A stretch of 64,000 nt of DNA from positions 28,835,118 through 28,899,117 of the forward strand of contig NC_090280.1 in the NCBI RefSeq assembly GCF_037392515.1. Direction: 5' to 3'. Position numbers and translations under genes: made by a program. The notes beneath the pieces were generated by a model, which ran no database searches, was not told where the DNA came from, and saw only the letters and a program-made list of their open reading frames with translations. Source of the stretch: Haliotis asinina (Eukaryota > Mollusca > Gastropoda > Lepetellida > Haliotidae). This document shows positions 3,768-64,000 of this stretch, one piece after another; position 1 is the stretch's first letter; each line of letters starts with the position of its first letter.

Positions 3768-3848
3768 TAGACAAGCTTGTCGTAAGAGGCGACTAGCGGA
3801 ATTGGGAAATCAGACTACATGACTTGGTAGACTGCATGTCAATGCACC
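3768..3848 (+). mobile_element. SINE-A fragment
   Basis: Only the middle block is left: GCTTGTCGTAAGAGGCGACT followed by a decayed GGGATCGGGTGGTC and 'acttggt'. Confidence 0.65.
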
Positions 3849-17400: not shown

Positions 17401-20400
17401 TCAGCGTCCTGTTATTTTTGGTGAAGGTGAGAGTACACTTGGGGCGGCAGTCAGCTGAACACGTCAGAGTGACATGCTTCATATCATCCTCCGATACAGT
17501 CGACTGAAACTTCATCGGGCCATCTGAAATATCGCGGGAACATTGATAAAATGACGTGCAAATATGTATACTCTTATGAATGTGACCTCAAAATTACAAA
17601 CATTACATCAAATGCTAGCAAACTTTACATCAAATGCTGCTCAACCGAAGCGAGTCTGCTTAGTGCAAGATGAAAATATTTAACAAATTCACCCTTTAAG
17701 TAATATGTGAAATTGTGTTTAGTTTTGTTTGTTGTATAACACCGCCGCCAGACGTATTCCAGCCTTAAATCTGCGACGGTGTCCGTACATCATACTAAAT
17801 GACCTTTATGCGAGGTATCAACACCGCATTCAGTGCTTTATCGTGTGTTCCAAATGGTGAAACACTGCTAAAACTCGCAAAAAACCCCAAAAAAACAAAA
17901 ACAAAAAAACCAAAAAAACTGTTGTACTCTGGTGTACTGCATATTGCACATATAAGGCACGGACGTCTATCATGACCTTTTTTGTTTGTTTATTATTGGG
18001 TTGTTTAATTGTTTAACGTTTCAATCAGCAATTTTCCAGCGATATGGCGGCGATCTGTAAATGATCGAGTCCGGACCAGACAATCCAGTGATCAGCATTT
18101 CATGACAATCGATCTAGGCAAATGGAATATGATAACATGTGTCAACCTAGACACCGAGTCTGACCATCCGATCCCATTGGTCGCCTCTTATGACAAGCAT
18201 GGGTTACTGAAGATTAATTCTCACCCGGATCTACACGAGCCTAGTGCTTGGAGTAAAGTAAGTAGCAATGGTTTGAGCCATACACTTTAGATTGAAACTG
18301 CTTCTGAAAGTATTTCAGTTGCGAAAAGTGTTCGAGTTGAATCGTTGTATGTTGGATAAAATGGGAGAAGACTACAAAGAAAGGGGCACAGGTCTTAGAA
18401 ATCCTTCTTGAACTTCAAGATGCTCAAAATAGTGATGAAGTTTGGATTCGAACGTACAATCAAGCTGTCTTGGTCCGGCAAGGGGGCATAACCCTAAATA
18501 ACTCATACCACAAGTCAAACGAGGAATGGAATGACTACACTTACATTCAATAAATATCGGTGAAACTCGACTCTCTCCGGTCCAGAAACCTTCCTCCTCC
18601 ATAACACTGCACCGGAACACCCTCCCATCGTACATCATGCTGAGGTTGGTAATTGTCAGGTTCGGTCCGGTCAACTTGATCCCTTGATCCGGATTGACAG
18701 GCAGTCCGTCTTTTACCCAGGAGTACGTCATTTGAAGTCCATGATTGACGGGGAGTGATCGAGACATTGTTACACAGGTGAGGGTATACTCTGTGTACAA
18801 AATAGGGGCAGGTGGTGTGGTTATGTATGGTCTCGTTGGCTGTTCTGAAAGACATATAATAGTTAAGGGAACATTACCGATTGTAAACCCTTCAGCAATG
18901 CATGAATTGGAACCTAGGTATACGTTTCCACTACTGGCGTCATAGCAGTGAAGGTTCACCGGAAGTGACGACATATAACTGAATGCTAGTTTTTGTGTTC
19001 CGAGACCCAATGGTCGAAGACGATTATTTCCGATACGTAACCAGACCATTGGTTCCTAGAGACTGAAAATGTGTTACCATACGACCATCAAATATTCTCA
19101 TGTCACTTCCATAATACACTCACAGGAAAAAAACGCAAGTTTCTATAAACTGAAATCTAACAACAGTAAGCGTTCATGTTCTTGTCTTCTTGACCTTCAC
19201 ATAATGTTCCCATTTGATTTTCGCATTGTCTTCTTATTTGACTTCACATATATCTTCCTATCTGACCTTCAAAATATGGGGCCATGAGACTTGTATACAT
19301 TCCCATGTGGCAAACAAAACTGCACTTACCGTGCAAAAGATAACATGTATTATTTACAACCAGTCAGAAATTAAATAACGACATTTCTAAAAACCCAGAG
19401 GTGACAGGACAGAGCACAGCATGCGATTATATACATGTATGTGTATGTCTTAAAAAAAGTAGGGGAACTGTACTTTCAATGTACGATTGTCGAAATCGGG
19501 AGATATATGGGATTGAATCGGTGTTGATACAATAATAATGGATGTTTTGAGACGGCATCACCACATGGATTTCATTCAAAGCAAAGCTGTTCGTTCAGTT
19601 GTCCCCCTTGTTAAGTGACGAGTATGACATGAAAATTTCCTGTATATAATTTTCAATCAGTAGTGTGTGATTTGACCCTGAAAACCGTAACCATTCACAG
19701 GTGTAAGAAAATTATCGGGAAAAATGGTCTACAGTGATTTATCGACCTGCCTGAAATACATCAAGATTCATAGTGACACACCCATGCACGTGTAGGAGGC
19801 GCCCACGTTGTGCACGTTCTTCCCATGCATTGTGTTTGCGTGTGATGATAGCATGAAATGATGCTGCATACACAAGGTAAATATCGTTCTAACGTTCCTC
19901 AATGGGTTTTCTTTCTAGTAGACTTCTTTGGCAAATGTGAACATAAATGGATGATGAATTTTCAATGATCTTGGGGAGAATTTTCAATGATCTTGGACTG
20001 GGTTTCATCTGGAAATCCCCAAATTGTGGTAGTATAATTTGACTTAAAACTGTTATCAAACATAAATTGAAAGATATTTATTGGCAAACATGGATGTCAA
20101 CAATTGAAACCTCTCCGAAAACAACCACTAATAGCTTTTCAAAAATCCATCTCTCAATTTGGAACCATACCTAAATGTTCAGCATTACATTAACTTGTTA
20201 AAATTTCGAATTTCCAGTCATTTCCTTCCGGTCGAGACAGGTAGGTGGCGAGGAATCCCACTACATGATAGAAAGTGTACTTTGTGTAACTTTGCTTGTC
20301 CTAAGTGCTGTTGAAAGATTGAACCGTCAAGCTCCCTGACACGTGTCATCGTTTCCCAGTTTCTTAAATCAATGTTCATGCTGTTGATCACTAGACTGTC

Positions 20401-28732: not shown

Positions 28733-28954
28733 TAACACTATGTTCCGATTTGTTACTCAGTATAAATACCGGAAGATTCACAAACAGGTTACAGTGTATG
28801 AAGCCCAAGTAAAATCTTCCTCTGCCTCACTTGGAACAGTGTACAAGATCAAACATATTTATCCAAACCTAATACGTATGATTCCACATAAAACATCAAA
28901 TATACCACTACTTAAAATAACGTCGCTCGAGAGACATTTATCTCCCCTGACTTG

Positions 28955-29062
28955 GTGTTGTCCAGTGGTTAAAGCGTTCCCTGGTCACCCCAAAGACCTG
29001 GGTTCGATTCCTCACCACGGTATGAAGTATGAAAGCCACTTTTTAGGACCCGATGCTGTGGT
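28955..29062 (+). mobile_element. SINE-B head copy
   Basis: Has 'gtccagtggttaaagcgttc' and 'cctgggttcgattcctcacc'. It faces the reversed copy that follows. Confidence 0.82.
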
Positions 29063-29074
29063 AGGTGTGGAGAG

Positions 29075-29218
29075 AGTGAGTGAGTATGGTTTTACGCCGC
29101 TTTTAGCAATATTCCAGCAATATCACAGCGTGGGACACCGGAAAGGGGATACACTTTGTAGCCATGAAGGGAATCGAACCCGGGTCTCCGGCATGAGGAC
29201 CGGACCACTGGGCTACCT
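29075..29218 (-). mobile_element. SINE-B copy
   Basis: Reads 'gtatggttttacgccgcttt' to 'gggaatcgaacccgggtctc', with the head complement 'gccactgggctacctta'-like at the right. Confidence 0.88.
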
Positions 29219-29631
29219 TAGAGCTCACTCACTGAATGATTCATTTGGCTTTGACATGATCATGCTCTTGGTTCCTTATTCTCGGGAATCACATTATGAA
29301 TTATGTACTAAGGGAAAACAATGAGGGATCATATGAAAGCACATATGAAATGTTCCCTTATTATTTTCCAGTGTTTTGTCACACGCTATACGATACAAAG
29401 TTTGTGAAGAAACCACGAAAAAGACAAAGGAATTCTTGTCGTTTCATGTGATCCCTCATTTTTTCCCCACAGTATATATTACATGTGTTGGTAGTGTCCC
29501 TAAATACGCCAGTTAACTTTTGCATCATGCTGAAGACAAATTGTAATCTGTGTCTATGTTCGCAGTTTTCGCAGATTATTACACGTTCCCAGTAACGAAC
29601 ACATCCTAGTACTGAAGGTGAGTTGTTGACC

Positions 29632-42299: not shown

Positions 42300-44070
42300 T
42301 GACAATTGTACTGAGTGAGAACTGTATTGAGTGAGAACTCTACTGATTTACTAGTGTGTTCAAAGAGAACTGTACTGATTTACTAGTATGCTGAAAGAGA
42401 ACTGCACTGATTTACAAGTGTGTTGAAATAGAACTGTACTGTACTGATTTACTAGTGTATCGAAAGAGAACTGTACTGATTTTGCTTGTGTGTCAAAAGA
42501 GAACTGTACTGATTTACAAGTGTATTGAAAGAGAACTGTCCTGTACTGATTTACTAGTGTATTGAAAGAGAACTGTACTGTACTGATTTACTAGTGTATT
42601 GAAAGAGAACTGTACTGATTTACTAGTGTACTGAAAGAGAACTGTACTGTACTGATTTACTAGTGTATTGAAAGAGAACTGTACTGTACTGATTTACTAG
42701 TGTATTGAAAGAGAACTGTCCTGATTTACAAGTGTACTGAAAGAGAACTGTACTGTACTGATTTACTAGTGTACTGAAAGAGAACTGTACTGTACTGATT
42801 TACTAGTGTATTGAAAGAGAACTGTACTGATTTACAAGTGTACTGAAAGAGAACTGTACTGTACTGATTTACTAGTGTATTGAAAGAGAACTGTCCTGTA
42901 CTGATTTACTAGTGTATTGAAAAAGAACTGTCCTGATTTACAAGTGTACTGAAAGAGAACTGTCCTGTACTGATTTACTAGTGTATTGAAAGAGAACTGT
43001 ACTGTACTGATTTACTAGTGTATTGAAAGAGAACTGTACTGATTTACTAGTGTACTGAAAGAGAACTGTACTGTACTGATTTACTAGTGTATTGAAAGAG
43101 AACTGTACTGTACTGATTTACTAGTGTATTGAAAGAGAACTGTCCTGATTTACAAGTGTACTGAAAGAGAACTGTACTGTACTGATTCACTAGTGTACTG
43201 AAAGAGAACTGTACTGTACTGATTTACTAGTGTATTGACAGAGAACTGTACTGATTTACAAGTGTACTGAAAGAGAACTGTACTGTACTGATTTACTAGT
43301 GTATTGAAAGAGAACTGTCCTGTACTGATTTACTAGTGTATTGAAAGAGAACTGTCCTGATTTACAAGTGTACTGAAAGAGAACTGTACTGTACTGATTT
43401 ACTAGTGTATTGAAAGAGAACTGTACTGTACTGATTTACTAGTGTATTGAAAGAGAACTGTACTGATTTACTAGTGTACTGAAAGAGAACTGTACTGTAC
43501 TGATTTACTAGTGTATTGAAAGAGAACTGTACTGTACTGATTTACTAGTGTATTGAAAGAGAACTGTCCTGATTTACAAGTGTACTGAAAGAGAACTGTA
43601 CTGTACTGATTTACTAGTGTACTGAAAGAGAACTGTACTGTACTGATTTACTAGTGTATTGAAAGAGAACTGTACTGATTTACAAGTGTACTGAAAGAGA
43701 ACTGTACTGTACTGATTTACTAGTGTATTGAAAGAGAACTGTCCTGTACTGATTTACTAGTGTATTGAAAGAGAACTGTACTGATTTACTAGTGTGTTGA
43801 AAGAGAACTGTACTGATTTACAAGTGTACTGAAAGAGAACTGTACTGATTTACAAGTGTATTGAAAGAGAACTGTACTGATTTACAAGTGTGTTGAAGGA
43901 GAACTGTACTGATTTACTAGTGTGTTGAAAGAGAATTTACTGATTTACCAGTGTGTCGAAAGAGAATTGTACTGATTTACTAGTGTATTGAAAGAGAACT
44001 GTATTGATTTACTAGTGTGTTGAAAGAGAACTGTACCGATTTACTAGTGTGTTGGAAGAGAATTGTACTG
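42300..44070. repeat. Minisatellite with 32/37 bp units and a 424 bp higher-order unit
   Basis: The basic unit is GAACTGTACTGATTTACTAG then 'tgtattgaaaga' (32 bp), or 37 bp when CTGTA is doubled. Variants TGTCCTG and TTTACAAG mark units. TGTCCTGATTTACAAG recurs at 42717, 43141 and 43565 and, in a second register, at 42929 and 43353, each exactly 424 bp apart. The centre therefore evolved by copying blocks of about twelve units. Confidence 0.97.
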
Positions 44071-44171
44071 AATGAGAAGTGTATTGAATCAGAACTGGAC
44101 CTACCTTTCGAATACAGAACCGCACACTCTAAAGCACTTTCTAATACTCCTTTGCGTAATTGTAGACGATT

Positions 44172-47879: not shown

Positions 47880-49245
47880 ATGGCTGAGTTGGTGAGTGCG
47901 AGAATGGGTGAGTTGGTGAGTGCGAGAGTCGATGGGTATGAGAGTGGGAGAGTTGGTTGGTGGGTGTGTTAGTGTGTAGGTGATGGATGTGTGGGTGAGT
48001 GGGTGAGTGAGTGAGTAGGGTGATGGATGAGGTAATGGGTGTGTGGATGTGTGGGGGTGTGGGGGTGTGGGTGAGTAGGGTGAAGGGTGTGTTAGTGTGT
48101 GGGTGAGTGGGGTAATGGGTGTGTGGGTGAGGGGGTGGGAGGGTAAGTGGGGTGATGGATGTGTGGGTGTGTAAGTGAGGTGATGGGTGTGTTAGTGTGT
48201 GGATGAGTGGGGCGATGGGTGTGTGGGTGAGGGGTGGGAGGGTGAGTAGGGTGATGGATGTGTGGGTGAGTGAGTGAGGTGATGGGTGTGTTAGTGTGTG
48301 GGTCAGTGGGGTGATAGGTGTGTGATGGTGAAGGGGTGGGAGGATGAGTGGGGTGATGGATGTGTGGGTGAGGGGTGGGAGGGTGAGTAGGGTGATGGAT
48401 GTGTGGGTTAGGGGGTTAGAGGGTGAGTGGGGTGATGGATGTGTGGGTGAGTGAGTGAGGTGATGGGTGTGTTAGTGTGTGGGTCAGTGGGGTGATAGGT
48501 GTGTGGGTGAAGGGGTGGGAGGATGAGTGGGGTGATGGGTGTGTGGGTGAGGGGTGGGAGGGTGAGTAGGGTGATGGATGTGTGGGTTAGGGGGTTAGAG
48601 GGTGAGTGGGGTGATGGATGTGTGGGTGAGTGAGTGAGGTGATGGGTGTGTTAGTGTGTGGGTCAGTGGGGTGACAGGTGTGTGGGTGAAGGGGTGGGAG
48701 GATGAGTGGGGTGATGGATGTGTGGGTGAGGGGTTGGGAGGGTGAGTGGGGTGATGGATGTGTGGGTGAGTGGGTGAGTGGGTGAGTGAGTGGGGTGATG
48801 GGTGTGTTAGTGTGTGGGTCAGTGGGGTGACAGGTGTGTGGGTGAGGGGGTTAGAGGGTGAGTGGTGCGATGGATATGAGGGTGAGTGAGTGTGTGGGTG
48901 AGTGGGGTAATGGATGTGTGAGTGAGTGGGTGAGTGAGTGGGGTGATGGGTGTGTTAGTGTGTGGGTGAGTGGGGTAGTGGGTGTGTGGGTGAGGGAGTG
49001 GTAGGATGAGTGGGGTGATGGATGTGTTAGTGTGTGGGTGAGTAGGGTGATGGATGTGTGAGTGAGTGGGTGAGTGAGTGGGGTGATGGGTGTGTTAGTG
49101 TGTGGGTGAGTGGGGTAATGGGTGTGTGGGTGAGGGAGTGATAGGGTGAGTGGGGTGATGGATGTGTTAGTGTGTGGGTGAGTGAGTGGGGTGATGAATG
49201 TGTGGGTGTGTGGGTGGGTGAGTAGGGTGATGTATGTGTGAGTTA
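47880..49245. repeat. G/T-rich minisatellite with about 180 bp higher-order unit
   Basis: Built from GTGAGTGGGGTGATGGATGT and GTGTGTTAGTGTGTGGGTCA modules. The 'gatgggtgtgttagtgtgtg' module recurs at 48281, 48462 and 48641, giving a block period of about 180 bp. The plus strand almost lacks C, and the many runs of three or more G could form G-quadruplexes on that strand. Confidence 0.95.
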
Positions 49246-49825
49246 ACGAAGGAGCGATCTGGAGGAGGGAAGGAGAGAAATGGAGCTGAAGTCGATTAGA
49301 ACAGTATGACAGTTATACCATTGTTTGTCAGCTAACTATTCCAGGAAATACCCAAGTAATGCTTGTGTTGGAACCCGTGGTCAGAGGAATAGCTAAACAT
49401 TGTAGTTTCAATTCACATACTACTCCATGTTGTCAACGTACGTAAAACTGATCCGTATTGTCTATGTGCAGTTGATACCTGTTGCGTTGGCAAAGAACAA
49501 CCGATGCCTGCTGTCCACGTAGAACTGATATCTGTTGATCATCTCCACGAATTACCGAGACAAGAAGCAGTGTCAGTATTCAAATAACTCGAACTGTAAA
49601 TAACACGACGTGTGTATGCGTGCTCCTTCATCGGAAACATTGTACTATTCACAATATTCATCCCTCATCTCCACGGAACAGCATTCCGTTGAATCCATGC
49701 ACAAAACCTAGCATTATGATTATTATTAATGGAAAATTACACAGCAGAGCTTCCATATGCAAAAGATAAAAAGTCACCGCAGATCAATACCATGTTCTGC
49801 CAGTTTCTTATCATTATACAGTAAC

Positions 49826-49975
49826 CTAATGGTGGCGTAAAACCATACTCACTCACTCACTCAATGAAGTAAACTGCTTTACATTCAGCACCCTGCTCAC
49901 TATATCAACCGCTGGTTTTTCCGGTCCAGATCTATAAACAGCTACCACGGAGCTGGAAGGTTTTGGCCTTATAAA
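49826..49975 (+). mobile_element. SINE tail fragments
   Basis: 49826-49862 is a SINE-B tail (GGTGGCGTAAAACC plus ACTC units). 49896-49975 is a SINE-A 3' fragment ('ccgctggtttttccggtcca'). Confidence 0.7.
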
Positions 49976-50624
49976 GAACGTACTGCAAGAGCTGATAACA
50001 CGCCAAAGACAGGGGAGACAACTGCACGATTGGAGTGTGTAAGCCTGTCTGTGCTGTCACAACTAAATAAAGCGACTAGCAATGGCTGTTGTACTCAGTC
50101 CTGATACAGCACATATCGAATATACATACACGCACGTTGAGACTTGGTCTATCCTTTAAATGGAAGGAACATGCACGCCCAATCCTCCTCTACAGATCAA
50201 GATGTCTGCAGTCCTGGCTGGATGAAGTCGCTGCTGGAATGGCCTTCCGTGACAAGAGACACTTTTAACACTCGTAGACTGCTTGTCTAAACCCTGACGA
50301 CAGCTGAGACGTGGACCTTCGTGCTTTATCACATGGACATCTTTTCCACCAAGGGTCCCAGTTTGTGTATGATAATTAGTTTTCAGGGAAGCAATTAGAG
50401 TGATGCATGGTTAAAAGTCGGACAAGTAAAGTGGAAAGAATTAACCGGGAAGAGTACCAACGCAGCTTCTATCGGTTGAATAAATGTGCTACAAAATATT
50501 TCATGCATTCAGAAATCGGTAAATATTTCATTTTGAAAGTTGAAATACTACAAAATGCTGACTCTACGTATCAATAAGGACTTAAGTGACGAAAGCTTAT
50601 AAGAGACATTCTTCAGAGTGAGTC

Positions 50625-51961: not shown

Positions 51962-53483
51962 TTAATATCTTCCTAATATTTTAGTTCCTATAATTTGAAA
52001 CTGTCTGTGTTCCACGTTAGATCCGACAGACATCTGTTGATTGGGCTGCTGACCTCCAACATAGACGTCCATCATACCTGAAAAGGGGAGACAATAAACA
52101 TGTACTAGGTCAAGGTCAAGGTCAAGGTCACAATCAAATATAGTCATCTGTAAGAAGACTTTAATGGTATGTAAAGGTGTGTTAGCTTTTACGCCGCGTT
52201 TTAGCAAAATGCATGTATATATCAAGGCCTGGGACACTCGAACTGGGATTTACAATTTGACTCCAGGAGGAAATTGAAAAAGATCAACGCTACCCTACGG
52301 TCCTTGGAATACATGGTTAGCTGTGGTATGTAATTCCAAGTGTTGAACATAAACACCAAAATAACCAAGTGACAAAACCAATATTTGCACCTGGTGGAAG
52401 TATTTGAAGTGCGTGCGAATCTACATAAAAGGACAGAAGGAGATATCGCTTTTGTATTTTGCTATAATGAAAGGGATTGTTCGAGCATGGGGTAACACCG
52501 CTTCACCATTGTTCCAGCAATTTCACGGCTGGGGACAGTAATGTGCTTCACACAGTGTAGCCATGTGGGGAATCGAAACCGTATCTTCGGCGTGACGGCC
52601 GAATGCTTAAACCTTTTGCTTTAAACCAAATGGAGAATGACTACCCACTGTATTCCATGTTTTGTCCGCCATATAGATGGAAAATTGCTGAACAAACCAA
52701 ATCATGTTAAAAACCGTGGCATATCACTTGCCTAGACAAAACCTGATAGTACAGTATATATTCTTTTATTTAGACCTGTGACAGTGTCACCAGCAGGTTA
52801 CATAGGCAGACAGTTAATGTGGACGATAGACAACATATGGAAGGACTCTCGTCATACACCATGACACTTTGACATCCGTGGCTCATATTGTGTAAGTAGC
52901 ATTTCTTTAACTCTTGGAGAAATATTGTGTGAAAAACATATGAGACTTTTGCAAACTTTAGATTGCTAAATACGATGCTGATTTATTTACTGAATATTTA
53001 CTTTTTGTGTATTTGACTACGACTACGACTACGACTACTCCTGCTGCTGCTGCTGCTGCTGCTACTGTTACTACTACTGCTGCTGCTGCTGCTACTACTG
53101 CTACTACTACTACTGCTGCTACTACTACTACTGCTGCTACTACTACTACTGCTGCTACTACTGCTACTACTGCTGCTGCTGCTACTACTACTACTACTGC
53201 TACTGCTGCTGCTACTACTACTACTAGCACTAATACTATAACTACTAATAACACTAACGCTCCCACTGCTACCATTACAACAACCACCACCCCCACTACG
53301 TACTACTACTACTGCTACTACTACTACTGTTACTGCTGCTGCTACTACTACTACTGCTGCTACTACTACTACTAGCACTAATACTATAACTACTAATAAC
53401 ACTAACGCTCCCACTGCTACCATTACAACAACCACCACCCCCACTACGTACTACAAGTACTACTACTACTGTTACTGCTGCTG

Positions 53484-53515
<32 letters not shown>

Positions 53516-55233
53516 GCTGCTACACTACTACTAGCACTAATACTATAACTACTAATATCACTAACGCTACCACATTAGAACAACCACCACCACTACGTAC
53601 TGCAAGTACTACTACTGCTGATCCACAGAGCAAAACACGATGACATACCTGGGAGAACCACCCATTCATCGTTATCGGTCCACACGGCCATGCTGCGGGG
53701 ATCCACTGTAAATTCATTGACTACCGACCCGTTTGAAATAATGAATCTCCTGGTAAAACCAACCAACTGAATCCTGGGAACCGGAAGTGAAGAATTTTGC
53801 CATGACATATACACCTGAGACACCTGGAAGGGAAAAGGAATACCACGCACTTGATTTTTAGATATTCTTAACTTTTAAACATAGATTATTCACTATAGCT
53901 ATCTCAAATGCGAAGATCGTAAATACGATATCACTTGTATCACGGTTCATTGGTTACCCTTTGCGACATTTCGGGTGATTCCGTCAGTGGGTCACGGAAA
54001 GGGCCGAGCAACTATGCGGTGAAGAACATTTGCAAATATATCATTTGGGTTTGACCCCACGTTGTTTCTTTTGCATAAGCTGGCACCGCATTGTACCTGC
54101 AAAAGCATCAGGTTTTTACGGTCAGTGTGGAAGATATCTGACCAGATAATTACGTTTGCACCACCAAATCGTGTGACCTTCCGTTCATTGCGACACGGTT
54201 ATTCTGTAGCTCTGAGCTCCCCTATTTAGAATATATTCAGCCAGAAAGATTATTTTAGGACAGAACCTGGTCTGTGTATAGTGTATACCCACTAACCTCA
54301 TCAGCGTCATACGACCCCGTGTTGTAGACGGTGACACTACACCACAGCCCCTCCCCAGCCATGACGGTGATGTCGCAGGTAAAGTCATCATATCTGAACG
54401 TGGTGTACGACAAGCCGTAGCCGTAGGGAAAGGCAGGCTCTCCATCGAAGAACCAGTATGTCCGACCAGCCATGGAATAGTTCACCATCGGAGGAATCTG
54501 CAAGATAACATTCGTTTGCTAAATAACAACATGGCCAAGCGTTGACTGATACCAATTAAACATATTCATCTGGGAATCATTGTTTGGATTTGAAATATCA
54601 AATGTAACATCTACAGTCCGAAACGACAGACCGCCGCCATACAGCTAGAATGTTGTTGAGTGCGGCGGAAAACTGAAGTCGCTCACTCATTCACTCACTC
54701 ACCTCACCTCACCTCACCTCAACTCAACTCACTCACTAACTCACTCACTCACTCACTCACTCACTCACTCACTCACTCGTGAAGGTACGGGGTACACTAG
54801 CCCCAAGCAACTCATGCTTGCCGTAAAAGGCGTGTATGTTTGTCGTAAGTGGAGACTAACGGGATCTGGGTACCCGGCAGGATTAGAAGATCATACCGTG
54901 TACCCAGTCATTGCAGTAGCATGACGATGTTTGTTCTACAACAGCAGTATGCAGCTGCGTGTCCCTTCTAGTATCTATCTGGTAGACCAGTGAAGATCCG
55001 AGTTAGAATTGGTCTTCGCAGATCGATGAGCATGCTGTTGGTCACTGGATTGTCTGGTCCAGACTCGATTATTTACAGACAGCCGCCAAATGACTGGAAT
55101 ATTGCTGAGTGCAGCGTAAAACTAATCTCACTCACTCACTACTACTGCTACTACTTTATCTTGCTGTTGCCGCTACTGCTATCACCACTGCTGCTACTAC
55201 TGCTACTACTGGTACTACTACTACTACTACTGG

Positions 55234-55270
<37 letters not shown>

Positions 55271-58200
55271 GCTACTGCTGCTGCTGCTGCTGCTGCTACC
55301 ATCACTACTATTTCTACTACCAGTCGCATCATTTATGATCCAAAACTCATCAAGGGCTCTACGGTGGCGGTTCTATACGAAAATCAAATTTCAATTTGTA
55401 ATTAATATCTTAAAGTTATTAATGAATTCGTCTAAGTGACTAAAACGATGCTGTATTCTCCATGCACTTTACCTGTGTGTCACTGCTTGGCCACGTGTAG
55501 GGCAGTCTGGCTGCAGGGACTGAGCCAACCCCCGTGTTTGTCAGAGAGGCAAAGATAGCGTCGCCCGCAGCCTGAGCCGGATAAAAACATTCTATTATGG
55601 CAACAACACGTGGGTTCGCCACCGCCCATCCAATCTCAACAGGTCCGCCATTAAAGAGGAGAAGGACGACCGGCTTATCGGCTGTAACATGATAACGAGT
55701 TATGATTAACGAGTTATATGAGACTGATGCCCAGTACACTTGTTCCTGCATAAATCAGTTACAGTTATTATTATAAATGTGTTTTTGCAGAATCCTGTAA
55801 GTGAAATCCTTGAAGACGAATACATTTATTTCGCGAGATTCGGTATTTTCATTATTTTGATACATATTTACACAGTTTATTACCTACGATGATCGTGGTT
55901 CTGAATACAATGTAAAGATGCATTGTAGTTAGTGCAAGCCAGACCATATCCTGACCGACGTTCACGAATCGGGATCGATGCTGTTGAAGATGACGGTTCA
56001 GGTCAAGACCAGTGAGAGGTACACTTTGATACGGAGGATAGTAGACGAACATGTGAATGAGTCACTTTAGTTTTACGCCACACGCAGCAATATTCCAGCC
56101 ATGTGGCGGAGATCTGTAAACAATGCGGATTCCATACAAGACAACCCAGAGATCAACAGCATCGATCTTCGCAACTGAAGAACGCTGACGTGTGTCAACC
56201 AACTGATGCGACCATGACCCCCCGATACCGTTAGTCGCCTCTTACGACAAGCGTGGGTGACAGAAGATCTGTTCTAATCCAGATCTTCTCTGTTCTAATC
56301 CAGATCTTCTCAGGTAAGATGACCATGTAAATGTAGCTGAAGACTATGAACAGATATGTACATGGTGGTCATGGTGTCGATGTTGACTTAGATGAAAAGG
56401 TAAATGTCACTGTGAGACAAGTTGGTGCAGAGGTTAATGCTGATATCGATGTTTTCGTCACTGGAAATGGACGTGAAGAACGTATGACCAGTCCACTAGC
56501 AACAGTATTTGCTGTTCTAGGTGTTGTATGTGATGTTGATGCGTAGATGGCGCAGGTGCTGTAGGTAATGTAGATGATATCTCACTGTTGTTGACGACGT
56601 CCTGTAAAAGCTGCAGTTGCTGTCCCGGCAGAGAAATGTTGTGTCGGTCATGCCCTTCAGACTCTATAGCTGGACCTGTAGGATATACCCTATTGTCACT
56701 TTAGATCACTGACACAGTTGTTCTGAAGTCGCACTCATTAATATGACAGTTTCGTCACGGTGTCGTGAAAGTATTTTAGTCTGGAGCAGACAATCCAGTG
56801 ACTGATAGCGACGTCGTTACAGGATCACATATCTGACCTCCCGATCCTCGCATGTTACGACAACCATTCGTTAACCGTTGAGAACAAACACAAGTTGTAA
56901 CTGGTCCAACTCGAAAGAACAAAGGAGGAAACTGGAGAGTTGTGCCCTTTACACATGACATAAGTTGCTGCGAATTTCACACCTGTTCCTAGGCACACGA
57001 ACACCACGTCAGCTCCTTGCAGCGCCTTTACCACGTCCCCCTTCCTGTAGTCCGTGCAGAAGGTGCTGGAACAGCCTGCAGCGTGGGTGGCCATGGTGCC
57101 CAGTCTGACCAGTCCGGACAGAGGGGAGCTGATGTAACGGGGGTCAGGACTCGGGGCGTAGTCACCAAACACCTGCTGGCTGTCATTTGCCATAGGGCCT
57201 ACTACCTGGAAAAGAATCCTGAGACTTTGTATTGAACACTAAAGTCATTCTCCATTATACTGCTGAGCAATAAGCAGATTCTCACACCTCTTCATTCAAA
57301 GCGTTGAATTGATGATTCTGAATTATATATTTTGAAACTCTTAAAACTTCATATTAGAATGCTCTTGAAAACTTTGATGCGTATCTGTCCGACACTTTAA
57401 TCATAAACTAGTTCCTGTAGGATGATCACAAACTCGTTTCTGTAGAATAATAGTCATAGCGTTTTCCTGTAACATAGTTGTGATCTCCTTCCTGTAGTAT
57501 GACCATAATCTTGATCAGTCTTGCAAAATCTTTCCTTCACCACGATAATAAACTCGTTCCTGTGGCATATCATAAACCCGTTTTTTGTAGATAATCCCGT
57601 CGTTTTAGTATAGTCCTAAACCTGGTCTTCAACAAAACCCTAAACTGGTTCCTGCAGCAATACCCTAAACTCTTTCGAGTAGTCAGTATGCAACTCACTG
57701 CGACGTGGGTGTAAAGTGTCTTGATAGGTAGAAAAGTATTGGTATTTTTCAGAAGAACAAATGTCTTGGCCGCTGCCTCTACAGCCAACTGTCGGTGTGT
57801 GGAGCTCAACACGACGTCATCAGTGTCAAGGTAGTTGTAAGGGTTCATTTCCGGTGGGTCGAACTCTCCAAGTCTAAGTCTGGTGTAGAGCAGACGTTTC
57901 ATGTTTTCCCTGACCAACGTCTCGCTGACCTTGTTCTGGTGTATAGCATCAACTGTGAGTAATTACAAAGGTACTCCAATATTTTGTTTATTTCCACATT
58001 CAACAATATTTCAGCATTTCGACGTCGGTCCGAAGATCCAGTGATTGACATCATGAGCAGCTATAGTATATGGTGACATACATCCCGTCAGTGTGCTTGA
58101 ACAACGTTCTTGTTATCATGTTCACCAGACAAAATATGTTCGGGATATTGACATTTTTAGGATTGATATTTGTCTGTCAATGAATAAATAAATCATTATT

Positions 58201-60201
58201 TATACTTTGAAAATTTACATATATTCCTAACTATTTTTGTCCAGTATATCAACATGCCGTGTTTCGATAATGACTATTACCTTTACCGACTGTAATCATG
58301 TTTTCATTGTTTTTCAGCTGGGGCGGTGGGGTAGCCTGGTGGTTAAAGCGTTCGCTCTTCACACTGAAGACCCGGGTCCGATTCTCCATAAAATGTGAGA
58401 ATGTGTGGGCAAAATGTGTGAAATACATTTCTGGTGTGCCCCGCCGTGATCTTGCCAGAATATTACCAAATGAGGCGTAAAACCAAATTCTCTAACGCAG
58501 TCACTCCTTTTGATCTCGTCTTCAGTGTATCAATTGATGACTTGCTTTGAAGATACTCATCATATTGACCACTGGTTTTCCGGTCCAGATTCGACTTTTT
58601 ACTGACCGCTGCTATATAGCTGGAATACTGCGTCGTCATACTTAACTCACTCACTCACTTTGTTTGATATCACAATACCACATATCATAGTTGAGTGAGG
58701 TGGATTTCCCGCCGATTTGAAAGGTATTTTATTCATATCATGCCATGTCTGCTGAATGTTGGAAAGACTGAGTTTACGTTACCGAAATTCGAACCCAAGG
58801 TACCAACAACGCTGCAGTATATTCTCTTCAAAGAGAAATAATAGCGGTATTTACCATCCCATGCTGCTACTTACTGATGGAGTTATAGACCCTTGTGTCA
58901 CCGCCCTGCACCTCCAGGCCACATCCGGCGTTCAGACAGCCTGCAGCTGCGTCGACGGTGTTGTTGAAGTAGTGCTGAACGTTGATACTGGTGAGAAGAG
59001 CCCCAGCATCTGAAGCTACGTAGCCGGTGAAGTTCCACTCCCCTCTCAGTATGTCAGTCAGCAGCTTCTTGTTGGCGCAGGCGGGGATACCGTTGATGCT
59101 GTGAGAAGAGAAAATGTCTAGATATTCTGTAAATTGCTGGGAGTATGGCCATTTCCTGCTACACGGATGAATGTGCTTTGAGAGAATTGTTAACTGTCTA
59201 AACATATATGACATAGAATTAGCAGTCAGATTCAATAAGGTTTTGCTCTTACAGGTTATATGCGCAGTGGAGGCCGAATGATCCAGCTTCTGCGCATTTC
59301 CGGAAGGGAGGTAGGAAGTAACTTCTCCAATCCCGTTCTGAAACCTAGATGGAACTCCTAAGTAACCATCTCATCAGTCACTTGTGGCTCATGCAGAAAC
59401 GTTGTCAACCTTGGTCATCAAGCTGTTGGAAGGGTTTTCGCCCAAAAAATGTTACAACATGGAACTTTTTGTCACGTGGCCTTGAACTTGGCATTAAGGA
59501 ACTAAAGCAAGAACTGGTCAGTTCTCTGTCGGTATAATTTATCCAACAGTGGTATCTTTGTTACATTGTGTGGAAGGATATTTCAGAGGACTTACACTAG
59601 AATTCTGTCACAGATCCAGTCTTGCACAAACAGGCACACTCACGCACACTTGCATGCATGTTATCCTACCTCATTTCAATTTCAGACGTGAAGTGCATTT
59701 ATTAGAGACCATTCCTAATTTATGAATAGGAGAGGGGAGTAATGTGGAATGTGACTGTACAAAATCCGCCCCCTCATCTCATTTCATGTACAAAATAGAT
59801 GACATCCGATTCAGTGAATGTCTATCTAAAAAGCATCATTATGAAAATCAAAATAGGTAAAACTGAACCTGCTTTAGACTGCAAGTGCTGGGATGATGCA
59901 GCATATGATATACACAAGTACAAAGAAAGATTAATGTCGTTGCGTACAAGACGACGACTGTTTTTCCATCAGAGGCGTCTACAACATATACATTTCTGGA
60001 ATGGAATGAGATTAAGTAAACCGACCACACCTTTGCATCAAAGTCGTGTCTACTGACGGGCCAGTCTTCTGGGCCTGCGGACACGTCGAAGTGTTTACAG
60101 GCGGAAGCAGTTCTCACATAGCGTGGGTGGCTACCATGGAGACCCTTCACGTGGTGGTATCCCATCTCCCCAGCATGGTAGGGGTCTTCACTTAGCGTCT
60201 C
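51962..60201 (-). CDS. GH3 beta-xylosidase-like glycoside hydrolase, 5' exons missing
   Basis: Ten exons on the minus strand, all in one frame: 60201-60029, 59337-59253, 59098-58875, 57952-57699, 57205-56983, 56675-56586, 55681-55473, 54497-54297, 53823-53649 and 52077-51962 (stop), 582 codons plus stop. The first visible exon has ETLSEDPYHAGEMG and ACKHFDVSAGPE, the GH3 (alpha/beta)8-barrel substrate loop. Exon 3 has YVASDAGALL, where the Asp is the expected catalytic nucleophile. Exons 4-8 form the second GH3 domain (VVGPMANDS, LLLFNGGPVEIGW, ECFYPAQAAGDAIF, RLPYTWP, FPYGYGLSYT). Exons 8-10 end in a fibronectin-III-like domain. The plant-type beta-D-xylosidase subfamily fits best and would release xylose from xylan ends, sensible in an algal grazer. 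Relatives are roughly 740-770 residues, so about 160 N-terminal residues including any signal peptide are absent. No stop or frameshift was found in the exons. AATAAA lies 365 bp downstream (51593-51598). Confidence 0.93.
52107..52130 (+). promoter_or_regulatory. Four tandem AGGTCA half-sites
   Basis: Four exact AGGTCA hexamers in a row, each overlapping as TCAAGGTCA, within the last intron of the GH3 gene. AGGTCA is the known nuclear-receptor half-site and TCAAGGTCA the extended monomer site of the ERR/NR5A group. It may equally be a chance microsatellite. Confidence 0.35.
52188..52300 (-). mobile_element. SINE-B fragment in a GH3 intron
   Basis: Reads 'ttttacgccgcgttttagca' then 'ggcctgggacactcgaactg' with a decayed head. 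Confidence 0.7.
52485..52615 (-). mobile_element. SINE-B copy in a GH3 intron
   Basis: Reads 'gttccagcaatttcacggct', 'gtgcttcacacagtgtagcc' and 'ggggaatcgaaaccgtatct'. Confidence 0.85.
53018..53625. repeat. (CTA/CTG)n array with an embedded 85 bp minisatellite
   Basis: A long mixed CTA and CTG triplet tract between the last two GH3 exons. A non-triplet module starting CTAGCACTAATACTATAACT and running to CCACTACGTACT occurs at about 53224, 53373 and 53530; the first two are near-identical and the third is shortened. Poly-Ser, poly-Thr and poly-Val frames across it are by-products. Confidence 0.95.
54625..54870 (+). mobile_element. Two SINE-A pieces joined by a long ACTC tail
   Basis: 54625-54680 is a 3' end ('cagaccgccgccatacagct'). 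54680-54778 is an unusually long tail of CTCA and CCTCA units. At 54779 a second copy starts at its 5' end (GTGAAGGTACGGGGTACACT) and stops near 54870. Confidence 0.88.
54985..55140 (+). mobile_element. SINE-A copy with internal deletion
   Basis: Starts 'tgaagatccgagttagaatt', skips the central block, resumes at 'gcagatcgatgagcatgctg' and ends with an ACTC tail that grades into the next triplet array. Confidence 0.88.
55140..55322. repeat. (CTA/CTG)n triplet array
   Basis: Mixed CTA and CTG triplets of about 180 bp at the 3' end of a SINE-A tail in a GH3 intron. Confidence 0.95.
56057..56285 (-). mobile_element. SINE-A copy in a GH3 intron
   Basis: Runs from 'agttttacgccacacgcagc' to 'gttctaatccagatcttctc'. 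The final 22 bp or so are duplicated. Confidence 0.88.
56772..56878 (-). mobile_element. SINE-A fragment in a GH3 intron
   Basis: Contains 'agtctggagcagacaatcca' and 'gacctcccgatcctcgcatg', with a central deletion. Confidence 0.75.
57983..58078 (-). mobile_element. SINE-A 3' fragment
   Basis: Retains 'cacattcaacaatatttcag' and 'gatccagtgattgacatcat'. It sits just upstream of GH3 exon 4. Confidence 0.65.
58318..58498 (+). mobile_element. SINE-B copy
   Basis: GGGGCGGTGGGGTAGCCTGG head, 'gacccgggtccgattctcca' B box, a small duplication of the 'aaaatgtgtg' region, then 'ctggtgtgccccgccgtgat'. Confidence 0.9.
58556..58660 (+). mobile_element. SINE-A 3' half
   Basis: Reads 'ttgaccactggttttccggt', 'gctatatagctggaatactg' and an ACTC tail. 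Confidence 0.85.
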
Positions 60202-60310
60202 CTTAAATTCACGTTCGTTTGTAAAGACACAATGCTTGCTCATCTCTAGAATGCAGATTGGGTGAACGTAGCTATACTCTTGGTATTTGTTTGTTTTATT
60301 TGTTTTGTTT

Positions 60311-60498
60311 GTGAATGAGTGAGTTTAGTTTTACGCCACACCCTGCAATATCCCAGCTATATGACGGTCTTGGTAACTTCGAGTCAGGAGCAGACAATCC
60401 AGTGATCACCAGCTTGAGCATCAATCTACGCAACCGGGATTTGATGACATGTGTCAGAGACCCTGATCACACTATCATCTTTTACGACAAGCATGGGT
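60311..60498 (-). mobile_element. SINE-A copy cut abruptly at its inner block
   Basis: Matches the family from 'gagtttagttttacgccaca' to TTTTACGACAAGCATGGGT. The family normally continues 'tgctgaagatcaattc', but here the sequence switches to AGTAGTATAGGGAATGGGGG. This is the inferred left junction of the virus-like element. Confidence 0.88.
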
Positions 60499-60775
60499 AG
60501 TAGTATAGGGAATGGGGGTTCTGGACCACTTTCAAGAAATGTCTCTACAACACCTTATTTACTAAATAAGACGTTGGTGGGCCCCTTAGCTCTTGCTACT
60601 ATTACCCCTACTACAAAAAAGTTGGCGGTAATTACTGTGCCTTGGTAGGAGGTAACACTGTGACGTACGGTACGATCAATACACGTTTATATCAATGAAG
60701 CAGTTTAACGTGAACCGCCTACGATCTCTTTGGTGTTCATAATAAAGGCTTGTTGGGCTTTTTGTATCCCCTGTG

Positions 60776-61321
60776 CTATGTACTTTTTTTCTCGTCCTCG
60801 CTGATAGCAGACTTACGAGACTTGGATCGAATATCTTGTTTCATTCCGTTATATTTTTTGAGTTCAGAGAGGATTGAACGAAACTCCTCTTCTGAGATCT
60901 TACTATCAGAGAGTGCCGTGGAAATACGCTCACTAACTGTGTTCAGTTTTGCTTCGGCCAGAACCCTGATCTCGTCGTGTTTCAATGCCTTACGATGCAG
61001 TCTGCGTGATACCAACTTAAGCGCCAACCCTAACACCCCCGCTATCCCAGCTGTTATTTCAAAACCTAGCACTATAGGTGCAGCCACGATGGTGGTTAAC
61101 AACCCAACACCTGCAGCCCCTAGTCCCGTGCTGGTTGCCATAAGGGCAGTGTCAGCCCCGTCCACGATATTGAAAGCTCTATTGTACTTCTTACATAGTG
61201 CTTTCCGCGTGTCACGGTCTTGTTCTAGTTGACGTTTCACATCACATAACTGCCTCAAGCGGAACCCATCTACAGTTTCCAACGTCTTCGCTACTTCCTC
61301 TACGACTGGGTACAGACCCAT
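60776..61321 (-). CDS. Virus-like cluster protein with glycine-rich membrane segment, 181 residues
   Basis: Starts MGLYPVVEEVAKTLETVDGF. Residues about 45-65 read KYNRAFNIVDGADTALMAT, followed by a hydrophobic glycine-rich stretch (about 64-101, with GLGAAGVGLLTTIVAAPIVL) long enough for one or two membrane helices. A basic segment RRLHRKALKHDEIRVLAEAK, a helix-prone SEEEFRSIL region and a charged lysine-rich C-terminus follow. I remember this layout as a recurrent uncharacterised family in cnidarian and mollusc genomes, often close to other virus-like genes; that is memory and not a search result. A minor virion or membrane-acting protein is a guess. It is the last gene before the element's left margin, with a 13 bp gap to the next ORF. 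Confidence 0.85.
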   Translation of the reverse strand: MGLYPVVEEVAKTLETVDGFRLRQLCDVKRQLEQDRDTRKALCKKYNRAFNIVDGADTALMATSTGLGAAGVGLLTTIVAAPIVLGFEITAGIAGVLGLALKLVSRRLHRKALKHDEIRVLAEAKLNTVSERISTALSDSKISEEEFRSILSELKKYNGMKQDIRSKSRKSAISEDEKKST

Positions 61322-61345
61322 CCTATAATATATATTATGAAAGAT
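61322..61345 (-). promoter_or_regulatory. TATA-like promoter candidate for the 181-residue gene
   Basis: The 13 bp gap and the end of the upstream ORF read, on the minus strand, CATAATATATATTATAGG directly before the ATG. No other space for a promoter exists. Confidence 0.5.
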
Positions 61346-62018
61346 ATTTTAATTGGGTTTCAGTTAATACTCTTCCAATGTATTTAAAGTCTACAAGTTC
61401 TATACGAGTAGTCAGGGTAATAGGTGAGAGGCTAATATACTTTCCTGTTGTAATAAAAACCCCACTGAGATTTATTAAGCGGTTTATAGGACCCCCGTGG
61501 GTATCCCGTTGTATAACAATACGACAATATTTGTTTGTGTGTTCGTCAAACCAGTGTATTGACACCCCGGGTAAAATTTGGTGTACTCTTGAGGTGTTTT
61601 CATTACCTAAAAATACAAAGAAGACTTCTATGATGAGTGTGAAAGGGGAGAATGTATCAAGACTTATGTTAGGAGTATAATTGATAAATGCTAATTTATT
61701 GTCTTCTCCAGGCCTTAAACTACTTTTTTCGGTCTCAGTAGTTGCTATGAATATCCTCTCCGGAATGAAATCCCCGGTCCAGATACCGTTGTTCCTAATC
61801 TTAGTGACAAATTTTGTATCTGTATCTATTGTGATATAAGGTGAGGCGAGTGTTAAGTTGATCAGCCATTTAGGCTCTTTTAAATCTGATAACGGCACCA
61901 GTCTGTACACGTTGTCTTTGAAGTGTAGGACGTATAATTCATCTTCCTCACCAGGCTGATCGAATCCCTCTGTATCTCCTAGGTCGTTAAGCGTGGTGTT
62001 GGGTCGATGACTGGTCAT
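61335..62018 (-). CDS. Fibre-like virion surface protein candidate, 227 residues
   Basis: Starts MTSHRPNTTLNDLGDTEGFD. The N-terminal segment LGDT.GFD.PG......Y.L.FKDNVYRLV is shared with the 304-residue neighbour. Downstream, NLTLASPYITIDTD, KIRNNGIW, LPGVSIHW and the C-terminal LTETQLKYLS align with NIRLVSPYVFTDNK, KVVNNGTI, VKGIKLGW and LSKNQLEIIS of that neighbour, so the two are tandem paralogues. The body looks all-beta and lacks a signal peptide or membrane helix. A 'DL.D.....G..Y.L' N-terminal repeat is typical of phage and virus appendage proteins, so a receptor-binding or spike role is plausible but inferred. It is shorter because one copy of the N-terminal repeat is missing. Confidence 0.82.
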   Translation of the reverse strand: MTSHRPNTTLNDLGDTEGFDQPGEEDELYVLHFKDNVYRLVPLSDLKEPKWLINLTLASPYITIDTDTKFVTKIRNNGIWTGDFIPERIFIATTETEKSSLRPGEDNKLAFINYTPNISLDTFSPFTLIIEVFFVFLGNENTSRVHQILPGVSIHWFDEHTNKYCRIVIQRDTHGGPINRLINLSGVFITTGKYISLSPITLTTRIELVDFKYIGRVLTETQLKYLS

Positions 62019-62045
62019 TATTATATTATTACGATATAATTTCCA
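62019..62045 (-). promoter_or_regulatory. AT-rich promoter candidate for the 227-residue gene
   Basis: On the minus strand the 10 bp gap plus the end of the upstream ORF reads ATCGTAATAATATAATA directly before ATG, similar in composition to the other gaps of the cluster. Confidence 0.45.
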
Positions 62046-62943
62046 ACTGGTTTTTTGATAATAATTCAGGGGTGAACTTCATACCCATGAAGTGTATGTT
62101 GGCAGGCAGGAAGATATTGGTTAGTGATATCTTGTTTTCCACGATCACGTTGACCCCCTGCAGACTGGTGTTGGAGTCGGTACCCACCCGCACGTAAACA
62201 TTGCAAACTTGATACTGGTGTCGTTTCACCCACCCGAGTTTGATCCCCTTCACGATCTCGATATTATTCCCCGATGGTTCCCCTAGGTAGACTTTGATGA
62301 TCAGTGTTGAGTTTGCCGGTAGACTCTCTAGTATACTGACCACGCCTTCGAATTCAGACACCAACTGCAATTTCACGTTTTGTATGGTCGGTTTACTCGA
62401 TAGCATATGAGCTGCCATAGTGTCGAGTGGGCTGATGACTATGCTACGTCTCTGAGTTGGGACGTAAGCCACGAGTATGGTTCCATTGTTCACGACTTTG
62501 TTTAGGTGGTTGTCTTTGTTATCCGTGAACACGTAGGGAGAGACGAGTCTAATATTGAGAAACCAGTCGTCGTTATCGGGTAACAACACCCACTTGTCAT
62601 CTTCGGTGAAGACGAGCATATATGGCTTGTTTCGGGCGACGGTAGTGCTCTCAACATCGTCTAAGTCGAACAGTTTACCCCCGAACGATGGGTATATTAT
62701 CCAGTTATTATCACCGGTGTTGACAAGGGAGTACTTAGTGTTTACTGTTGCTCTTGTGGTATCTATCATATCACTTAGGGCTCCACTGGAGGGGATTTCA
62801 ACGCGTTTGTAAATGTTGTTTTTCAGTTGCAAGGCGTACGATGTACCATCTACTCCGGGAGCGTCGAAACCGCGCGTGTCTCCGAGGTCGGAGATCCCGA
62901 TATTGACGCATTTTTTAACTCCGGGTCCTTGTGCGCTGGTCAT
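62029..62943 (-). CDS. Fibre-like virion surface protein candidate, 304 residues
   Basis: Starts MTSAQGPGVKKCVNIGISDL. Residues about 18-52 (ISDLGDTRGFDAPG to NNIYKRVEIP) and about 93-126 (KLFDLDDVESTTVA to DDKWVLLPD) look like two copies of one roughly 34-residue module with the pattern 'DL.D......Y.L.....D.W/Y...P'. A beta-rich body (about 130-304) follows, with NIRLVSPYVF, VVNNGTILVAY, VKGIKLGWVKR and the end FTPELLSKNQLEIIS. It is the longer paralogue of the adjacent 227-residue protein. No catalytic motif, signal peptide or membrane helix is seen. The likely job is a virion surface or attachment protein; exposure and host range are inference. The second module is absent from the shorter paralogue. 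Confidence 0.82.
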   Translation of the reverse strand: MTSAQGPGVKKCVNIGISDLGDTRGFDAPGVDGTSYALQLKNNIYKRVEIPSSGALSDMIDTTRATVNTKYSLVNTGDNNWIIYPSFGGKLFDLDDVESTTVARNKPYMLVFTEDDKWVLLPDNDDWFLNIRLVSPYVFTDNKDNHLNKVVNNGTILVAYVPTQRRSIVISPLDTMAAHMLSSKPTIQNVKLQLVSEFEGVVSILESLPANSTLIIKVYLGEPSGNNIEIVKGIKLGWVKRHQYQVCNVYVRVGTDSNTSLQGVNVIVENKISLTNIFLPANIHFMGMKFTPELLSKNQLEIIS

Positions 62944-63018
62944 TTTACATGAAGCGTTAAGCTGAGGTATCCTATATTTACAGGATTATGATTTATATCT
63001 AACACCGATATTGTCAGC

Positions 63019-63594
63019 TCAGGTATGTTGCCCTGGGTTAATTTTTTTATACTGCCGTGGTGAAAACGACTCGGTTCTACCGTCGTTGTATTTCTCAGTT
63101 TTCACCGGCACTGCTCTCAGTATAGTGGAAGGGTGACCTCCTTGAATGTTGTCCGTTGTGCTCACCTGACTGAGATGAATGTACAGCTCTCGGTACGGTA
63201 CTAGGTCGGGTAACTTCGTGCCTGTGACGGTTGTTGTTGGTTTTATCTCATCAGGAGACATACCGAGTATCCTCGCTAATGGTCGGCCTAGCCTCAAGGG
63301 GTTTCTTCCGTTGTTGATTAACACCACTGTGCCGTTTGAGTCGTTCATCTTGAGTTCGGCTCCAAGGGGTTTGAAGACCTCGTCGTTTAGAGAGCACACG
63401 CTGTAGTAGCCGTCAGTTATCTGGCTGCGAGTTCCACTGACGAACAGCTTATTGTTGCTGATATTGATGTTAGTCCATTGCGGTAGGTAGGTGATATCGC
63501 AGAGTGCGACTTCGAGTTGACCTGACGTGTTATCGATCGCGTGCGTCAGCTGAACAGCCTCACCGCTCGTTATTCCTGGAAGTGTTATGTACAT
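63019..63594 (-). CDS. Conserved virus-like cluster protein, 191 residues
   Basis: Starts MYITLPGITSGEAVQLTHAI, then GQLEVALCDITYLPQWTNIN. I recall an uncharacterised family in cnidarian and mollusc virus-like loci with an N-terminal 'WEVAL.EI.YP..W.N' pattern, and the 'LEVALCDITYLPQWTNI' here fits it, as does the predicted beta-rich first half. A segment RNPLRLGRPLARILGMSPDE lies mid-protein, and the C-terminal 50 residues are basic and low in structure. No signal peptide or membrane helix. A virion structural or accessory role is inferred from neighbourhood only. Its start codon is only 37 bp from that of the divergent gene, so the two probably share a control region. Confidence 0.8.
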   Translation of the reverse strand: MYITLPGITSGEAVQLTHAIDNTSGQLEVALCDITYLPQWTNINISNNKLFVSGTRSQITDGYYSVCSLNDEVFKPLGAELKMNDSNGTVVLINNGRNPLRLGRPLARILGMSPDEIKPTTTVTGTKLPDLVPYRELYIHLSQVSTTDNIQGGHPSTILRAVPVKTEKYNDGRTESFSPRQYKKINPGQHT

Positions 63595-63631
63595 GTTAGA
63601 GTATATACACTCATTATATAAGAGTTTTAAA
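63595..63631. promoter_or_regulatory. Bidirectional promoter candidate
   Basis: A 37 bp gap between two divergent start codons. It contains GTATATAC and ATTATATAAG, TATA-like boxes about 10 bp apart, one suited to each direction. Confidence 0.6.
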
Positions 63632-64000
63632 ATGTTGTTTTACCCTAAACTGGACGTAGATTTCTCCCCGATGAAGATCGTGGTTGCTCCTGAGTTGTAT
63701 TTCAATGCCCAGCTTTTAGATGTGTTCGATAAGTATAAGCTTTCGGTGACTAACATCAAGGCAGTCCACGCTTGGTTCAACAACCCTATGCAGTTCTGGC
63801 AGAATCAATTAAACTTTGCTGTGTGGTGCGCTACAACAGGGTGTGGTGTGACATTGACCGACACTCGACGTGGACCGCTGAGTCAGTCTGTGTTCAAGTT
63901 CCACGTGTACTACCAGGTCAGACGTATCCTTAAAGAGATCAGCGCCCCCCTCCCACAGGACAAAGCGTGGGACGCAACAAACAACCCGTATGATAGACGG
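63632..64000 (+). CDS. Conserved virus-like cluster protein, N-terminal 123 residues (runs off the window)
   Basis: The ATG at 63632 opens a frame without stop to the last base. Visible landmarks are KIVVAPELYFNAQLLDVFD, AWFNNPMQFWQNQLNFAVW, CATTGCGV and VYYQVRRILKEISAPLPQD. I remember proteins with the FWQNQLNFAVWCATTGCGV block as a repeated uncharacterised family in cnidarian and mollusc genomes, often together with relatives of the 191-residue protein; this is recollection, not a search. It has no signal peptide and no recognisable enzyme motif in this part. It is the only plus-strand gene of the cluster, and the rest of the element presumably continues in this direction. Confidence 0.82.
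   Translation, partial: MLFYPKLDVDFSPMKIVVAPELYFNAQLLDVFDKYKLSVTNIKAVHAWFNNPMQFWQNQLNFAVWCATTGCGVTLTDTRRGPLSQSVFKFHVYYQVRRILKEISAPLPQDKAWDATNNPYDRR

Follow-up and report, generated by a model that had tools for sequence, protein, structure and literature searches.

Apparent terminus of an integrated Polinton/Maverick element with a penton gene in a chromosome of the gastropod Haliotis asinina

Polintons (Mavericks) are virus-transposons characterized by a 5'-AGTAGT terminus, intron-less genes, and a penton gene, which encodes a capsid-vertex protein (PMC8097293, PMC4028283). For vertebrate Mavericks, AGT repeated twice at the 5' end is given as the most common end-motif, the terminal inverted repeats (TIRs) span 46–1447 bp, and in most elements the modules point inward, although exceptions and flanking accessory regions occur (PMC8097293). 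Mavericks are also described as generating 6-bp target duplications, and the major capsid gene is expected directly beside the penton gene or one gene away. The adintoviruses are defined by PolB (with an OTU-like domain), a chromodomain integrase, and a hexon (PMC11071296), and mavirus integrates in a protist flagellate (PMC8547959). Maverick elements have been reported to be about as frequent in Haliotis discus hannai as in the limpet Lottia gigantea (PMC5439488), and they were present in all genomes analysed in PMC10294476; among the open-licence literature matches listed, no title was devoted to mollusc Polintons. Here, we describe a stretch of 64,000 nucleotides from Haliotis asinina (contig NC_090280.1, positions 28,835,118 to 28,899,117; hereafter, the window), the right end of which looks like one end of an integrated Maverick/Polinton element, the signs being a penton gene and the terminal motif.

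The sequence from position 60499 onward very probably forms the left end of a Polinton/Maverick (adintovirus-like) element that has integrated into a mollusc chromosome, in a host repeat that adjoins glycosyl hydrolase family 3 exons. This reading builds on observed features: an abrupt junction, a terminal (AGT)2, compact genes lacking introns, and a penton gene recognized by its fold. An initial annotation of the window had proposed a virus-like integrated element beside mollusc DNA, which is borne out by the abrupt junction, the compact intron-less genes, the penton fold, and the relative that one of the open reading frames (ORFs), ORF3, has in Haliotis rubra. It had also left the type of element open, as possibly new; because the penton and the terminal AGTAGT both point to Polintons/Mavericks, we assign the element to them, and it looks like a further member of an established class that adds no new element type. 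The features are as follows.

60315..60498 (start approximate), plus strand: host interspersed repeat, of the type of short interspersed nuclear elements, interrupted by the element; copies occur elsewhere in the window, and here 60498 is not followed by the usual continuation
60499..60504, plus strand: left terminus of the element, AGTAGT, read from the sequence; same as the commonest vertebrate Maverick end-motif
60499..60775, no strand: presumed TIR and non-coding end, 277 bp, with no cluster ORF inside; length within the vertebrate Maverick TIR range; partner copy outside the window
60776-61321, minus strand: ORF1, 181 amino acids, ATG start; candidate membrane-active capsid-core protein
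61335-62018, minus strand: ORF2, 227 amino acids, ATG start; paralogue of ORF3
62029-62943, minus strand: ORF3, 304 amino acids, ATG start; relatives are P0001 and a Haliotis rubra protein
62940..63035, minus strand: ORF4 penton tail in another frame, placed by eye against P0003; its stop overlaps the ORF3 start
63019-63594, minus strand: ORF4, 191 amino acids, ATG start; in-frame part of the predicted penton gene, broken near its 3' end
63632..64000, plus strand: ORF5, open at the window end

The similarity to the host repeat ends at 60499, the position at which the initial annotation had begun the cluster. The last 17 bases of the repeat before this point had 14 matches in the window with up to three mismatches, including the site itself, compared with 0.19 expected. 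The flanks were compared at 10 of these 14 matches, with those at 3769, 24868, 28174, and 56855 excluded because their last bases differed. When the 12 bases that continue the repeat copy at 1374 were used as the reference, which was picked after the flanks had been inspected, the nine other copies shared 7 to 12 positions with the usual continuation, whereas the element start, AGTAGTATAGGG, shared only 3. The conserved terminal motif 5'-(AGT)2 coincides exactly with the break in the host repeat, at the left end, the only one in view. The plus strand of the window contains 12 copies of AGTAGT, and a chance placement of one exactly at the break is therefore unlikely. A right end, sought as ACTACT followed by six bases and the repeat continuation, was not found in the window, as expected if it lies outside. 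The position of that end outside the view, and the short contigs of environmental sources among the relatives, would also fit free viral or environmental DNA misassembled onto host DNA. However, the join falls exactly at the terminal motif of integrating elements, and the Haliotis rubra relative of ORF3 lies on a contig of 1,021,237 bases, which makes such an artefact highly improbable.

The five ORFs reported in the initial annotation are real, four of them, each with an ATG start, running leftward on the minus strand and one running on the plus strand, but their frames are not all intact: ORF4 is broken in this copy, stopping early with its tail in another frame, and ORF5 runs off the end of the window (its start was taken at the in-frame ATG at 63632, the mechanical start being at 63587). 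By the ORF coordinates, the gaps between them are, in order, 13, 10, 75, and 37 bp, in agreement with the 10–75 bp originally given, and the 75-bp gap is filled by the out-of-frame penton tail. The intron-less ORFs typical of Polintons/Mavericks are represented by four of 181–304 amino acids, one of them with a broken frame. Any ATG ORF of at least 150 amino acids was obtained in only 11 of 500 dinucleotide shuffles of 60499–64000 (longest, 171), compared with four in the real stretch, and the rest of the 64 kb contained only two others (18372–19049 and 28740–29324). TATA-like gaps had likewise been noted correctly, in that TATAWA occurred within 60 bp upstream of four of the five starts (all except that of ORF2), compared with 6.9% of positions; these counts are partly non-independent, as one gap is common to ORF4 and ORF5, and the match of ORF3 is 54 bp away.

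The initial annotation had recognized no capsid gene, whereas ORF4, judged by the modelled fold of its relative P0003, is a penton gene (minor capsid, single jelly roll). The family to which it belongs has 28 members found here, without a Pfam domain. The best match of the family model to a solved fold over its whole length was the mavirus penton, although the identity was only ~7–11%, and adintovirus proteins were also among the fold matches. ORF4 stops at 191 amino acids, against 217, 221, and 219 in the relatives P0003, P0004, and P0005, respectively, and the missing tail is encoded directly downstream in another frame. The last two strands of the P0003 model (188–198 and 207–216) fall in this tail. 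Mutation, assembly error, and recoding are possible causes of the break; for some adintovirus penton ORFs, PMC11071296 mentions that recoding may occur close to the 3' end. The broken penton frame has probably impaired this copy of the element, barring an assembly error or recoding that overcomes the break. A further relative of the penton, P0019, is filed under a Candidatus Thiodiazotropha metagenome-assembled genome from a Lucinoma clam and probably stems from host DNA that was binned with the symbiont; the one weak match of a genome contig to P0019 falls in a cytochrome oxidase region and was dismissed as chance.

Several points weigh against the assignment to Polintons/Mavericks. The visible part shows neither a major capsid gene nor a gene for a polymerase, integrase, ATPase, or protease, and it shows neither the right end nor the target duplication. 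At curated cut-offs, the five visible ORFs had no match in Pfam, with PolB, the rve integrase, the packaging ATPase, and a protease all unrecognized, or in NCBIfam, where ORF4 was represented by P0003; ORF1–ORF3 and ORF5 were not recognized. Sequence searches of solved structures, which covered the penton profile, ORF3, and ORF5, gave no hit with E up to 1, and scans of IMG/VR gave no relative. A major capsid gene should lie no further than about one gene from the penton; none was recognized in the visible stretch, although the ORF3 model is unusable (confidence score, pLDDT, 31) and ORF5 is incomplete. ORF1–ORF4 point outward, toward the terminus, whereas both modules point inward in most vertebrate Mavericks. 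The penton fold itself was modelled from P0003 and not from the broken window copy, its best match superposes with a high root-mean-square deviation (7.4 over 214 residues), and pentons are also present in other viruses, the fold being common to mavirus, Sputnik, PBCV-1, adenovirus, and adomavirus proteins. This breadth, together with the gene orientation and the lack of a replication gene in view, would fit another kind of integrated virus that has a penton without being a strict Polinton, whether virophage-like or adomavirus-like, or a chimeric midsize DNA virus whose replication genes differ. We regard this as improbable, given that a Maverick-type AGTAGT terminus sits at the exact junction. 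The likeness to mavirus and other virophages lies in the best fold match, but the fold also matches pentons of adenovirus and giant viruses, and no other virophage gene was seen in the cluster. As for the adintoviruses, the defining PolB, integrase, and hexon would lie beyond the window; the shared feature in view is the penton, and a small hydrophobic protein such as ORF1 would suit them.

ORF1 starts with Met-Gly and contains one long hydrophobic stretch (19-residue windows scoring >1.6 begin at residues 65–87). A small hydrophobic protein of this kind would suit Macc, the membrane-active capsid-core class of adintoviruses (PMC11071296), and ORF1 is a candidate by this feature rather than by homology. 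Its assignment to DUF4781 was not accepted, because the Pfam match (E 0.0025) scored 17.2 bits where the cut-off is 27.9. The proteins of ORF2 and ORF3 are paralogous (27% identity over 210 aligned columns; E 3e-14, calculated for this one comparison). ORF3 shows 90% identity to P0001 and 58% to the first 109 residues of its only named relative, the Haliotis rubra protein P0002. P0001 and P0003, the closest relatives of ORF3 and ORF4, respectively, are each known from a single contig; both contigs are 2338 bp long, so the two proteins are probably encoded on one contig. A phage origin was rejected: ORF3, the only ORF searched, had no match in the phage collection, and the best PHROG match (ORF5, tail assembly chaperone, E 0.043) was treated as chance, with ORF4 represented in that scan by P0003–P0005 instead of the window copy.

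The Haliotis rubra gene model continues after the ORF3-like residues with ankyrin repeats, a fusion that is either real or a gene-model artefact. Such a fusion would fit ordinary or domesticated host genes that are intron-less by coincidence, but this explanation is contradicted by the abrupt junction inside a repeat with the terminal motif, the viral capsid fold, the compact operon-like layout, and the broken frame in a capsid gene, and we find it barely credible. Under the Polinton/Maverick assignment, and by analogy with the known class, a retrovirus-like integrase would join the linear element to host DNA with a 6-bp target duplication, and a protein-primed DNA polymerase would copy it. 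The penton would form the five-fold vertices of the particle, the facets of which would consist of a double-jelly-roll capsid protein with its gene to the right of 64,000. More tentatively, ORF1 might be the membrane-active capsid-core protein, and ORF2 and ORF3 might be surface or vertex-associated proteins. A bolder extension, which we consider doubtful, is that the element represents a lineage of Polinton-like viruses of marine invertebrates, in which an undescribed surface protein is present on the particle in two diverged versions (ORF2 and ORF3), with a shared N-terminal segment that docks on the penton or shell. The rest of the protein would vary freely, as the joining to ankyrin repeats in Haliotis rubra hints, and the lineage may use other replication genes.

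The tie of a protein family without a Pfam domain to viral pentons provides an anchor for finding Polintons in molluscs and other invertebrates, and the same anchor serves the question of whether these elements circulate as particles. Here, one conserved gene, folded with its relatives, resolved an otherwise uncharacterized gene cluster.

Minus-strand glycosyl hydrolase family 3 exons (57570–60243) lie directly to the left of the element. The exon at 58867–59235 matched profile positions 214–280 (E 1.9e-10), and 59848–60243, also on the minus strand, weakly matched positions 136–170 (E 0.019, below the cut-off). Earlier profile positions are expected to the right, and the element may therefore sit in an intron of this gene. 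Elsewhere in the window, the ORF at 18372–19049 (minus strand, 225 codons) had a weak immunoglobulin-domain match (E 0.003, below the cut-off). Repetitive sequences included a tandem array at 42337–44097 (106-bp period, ~17 copies, 92% matches), a GT-rich tandem array at 47881–49240 with very strong GC skew (0.66 in 48001–50000), and an ACT-type trinucleotide array at 53016–53554.
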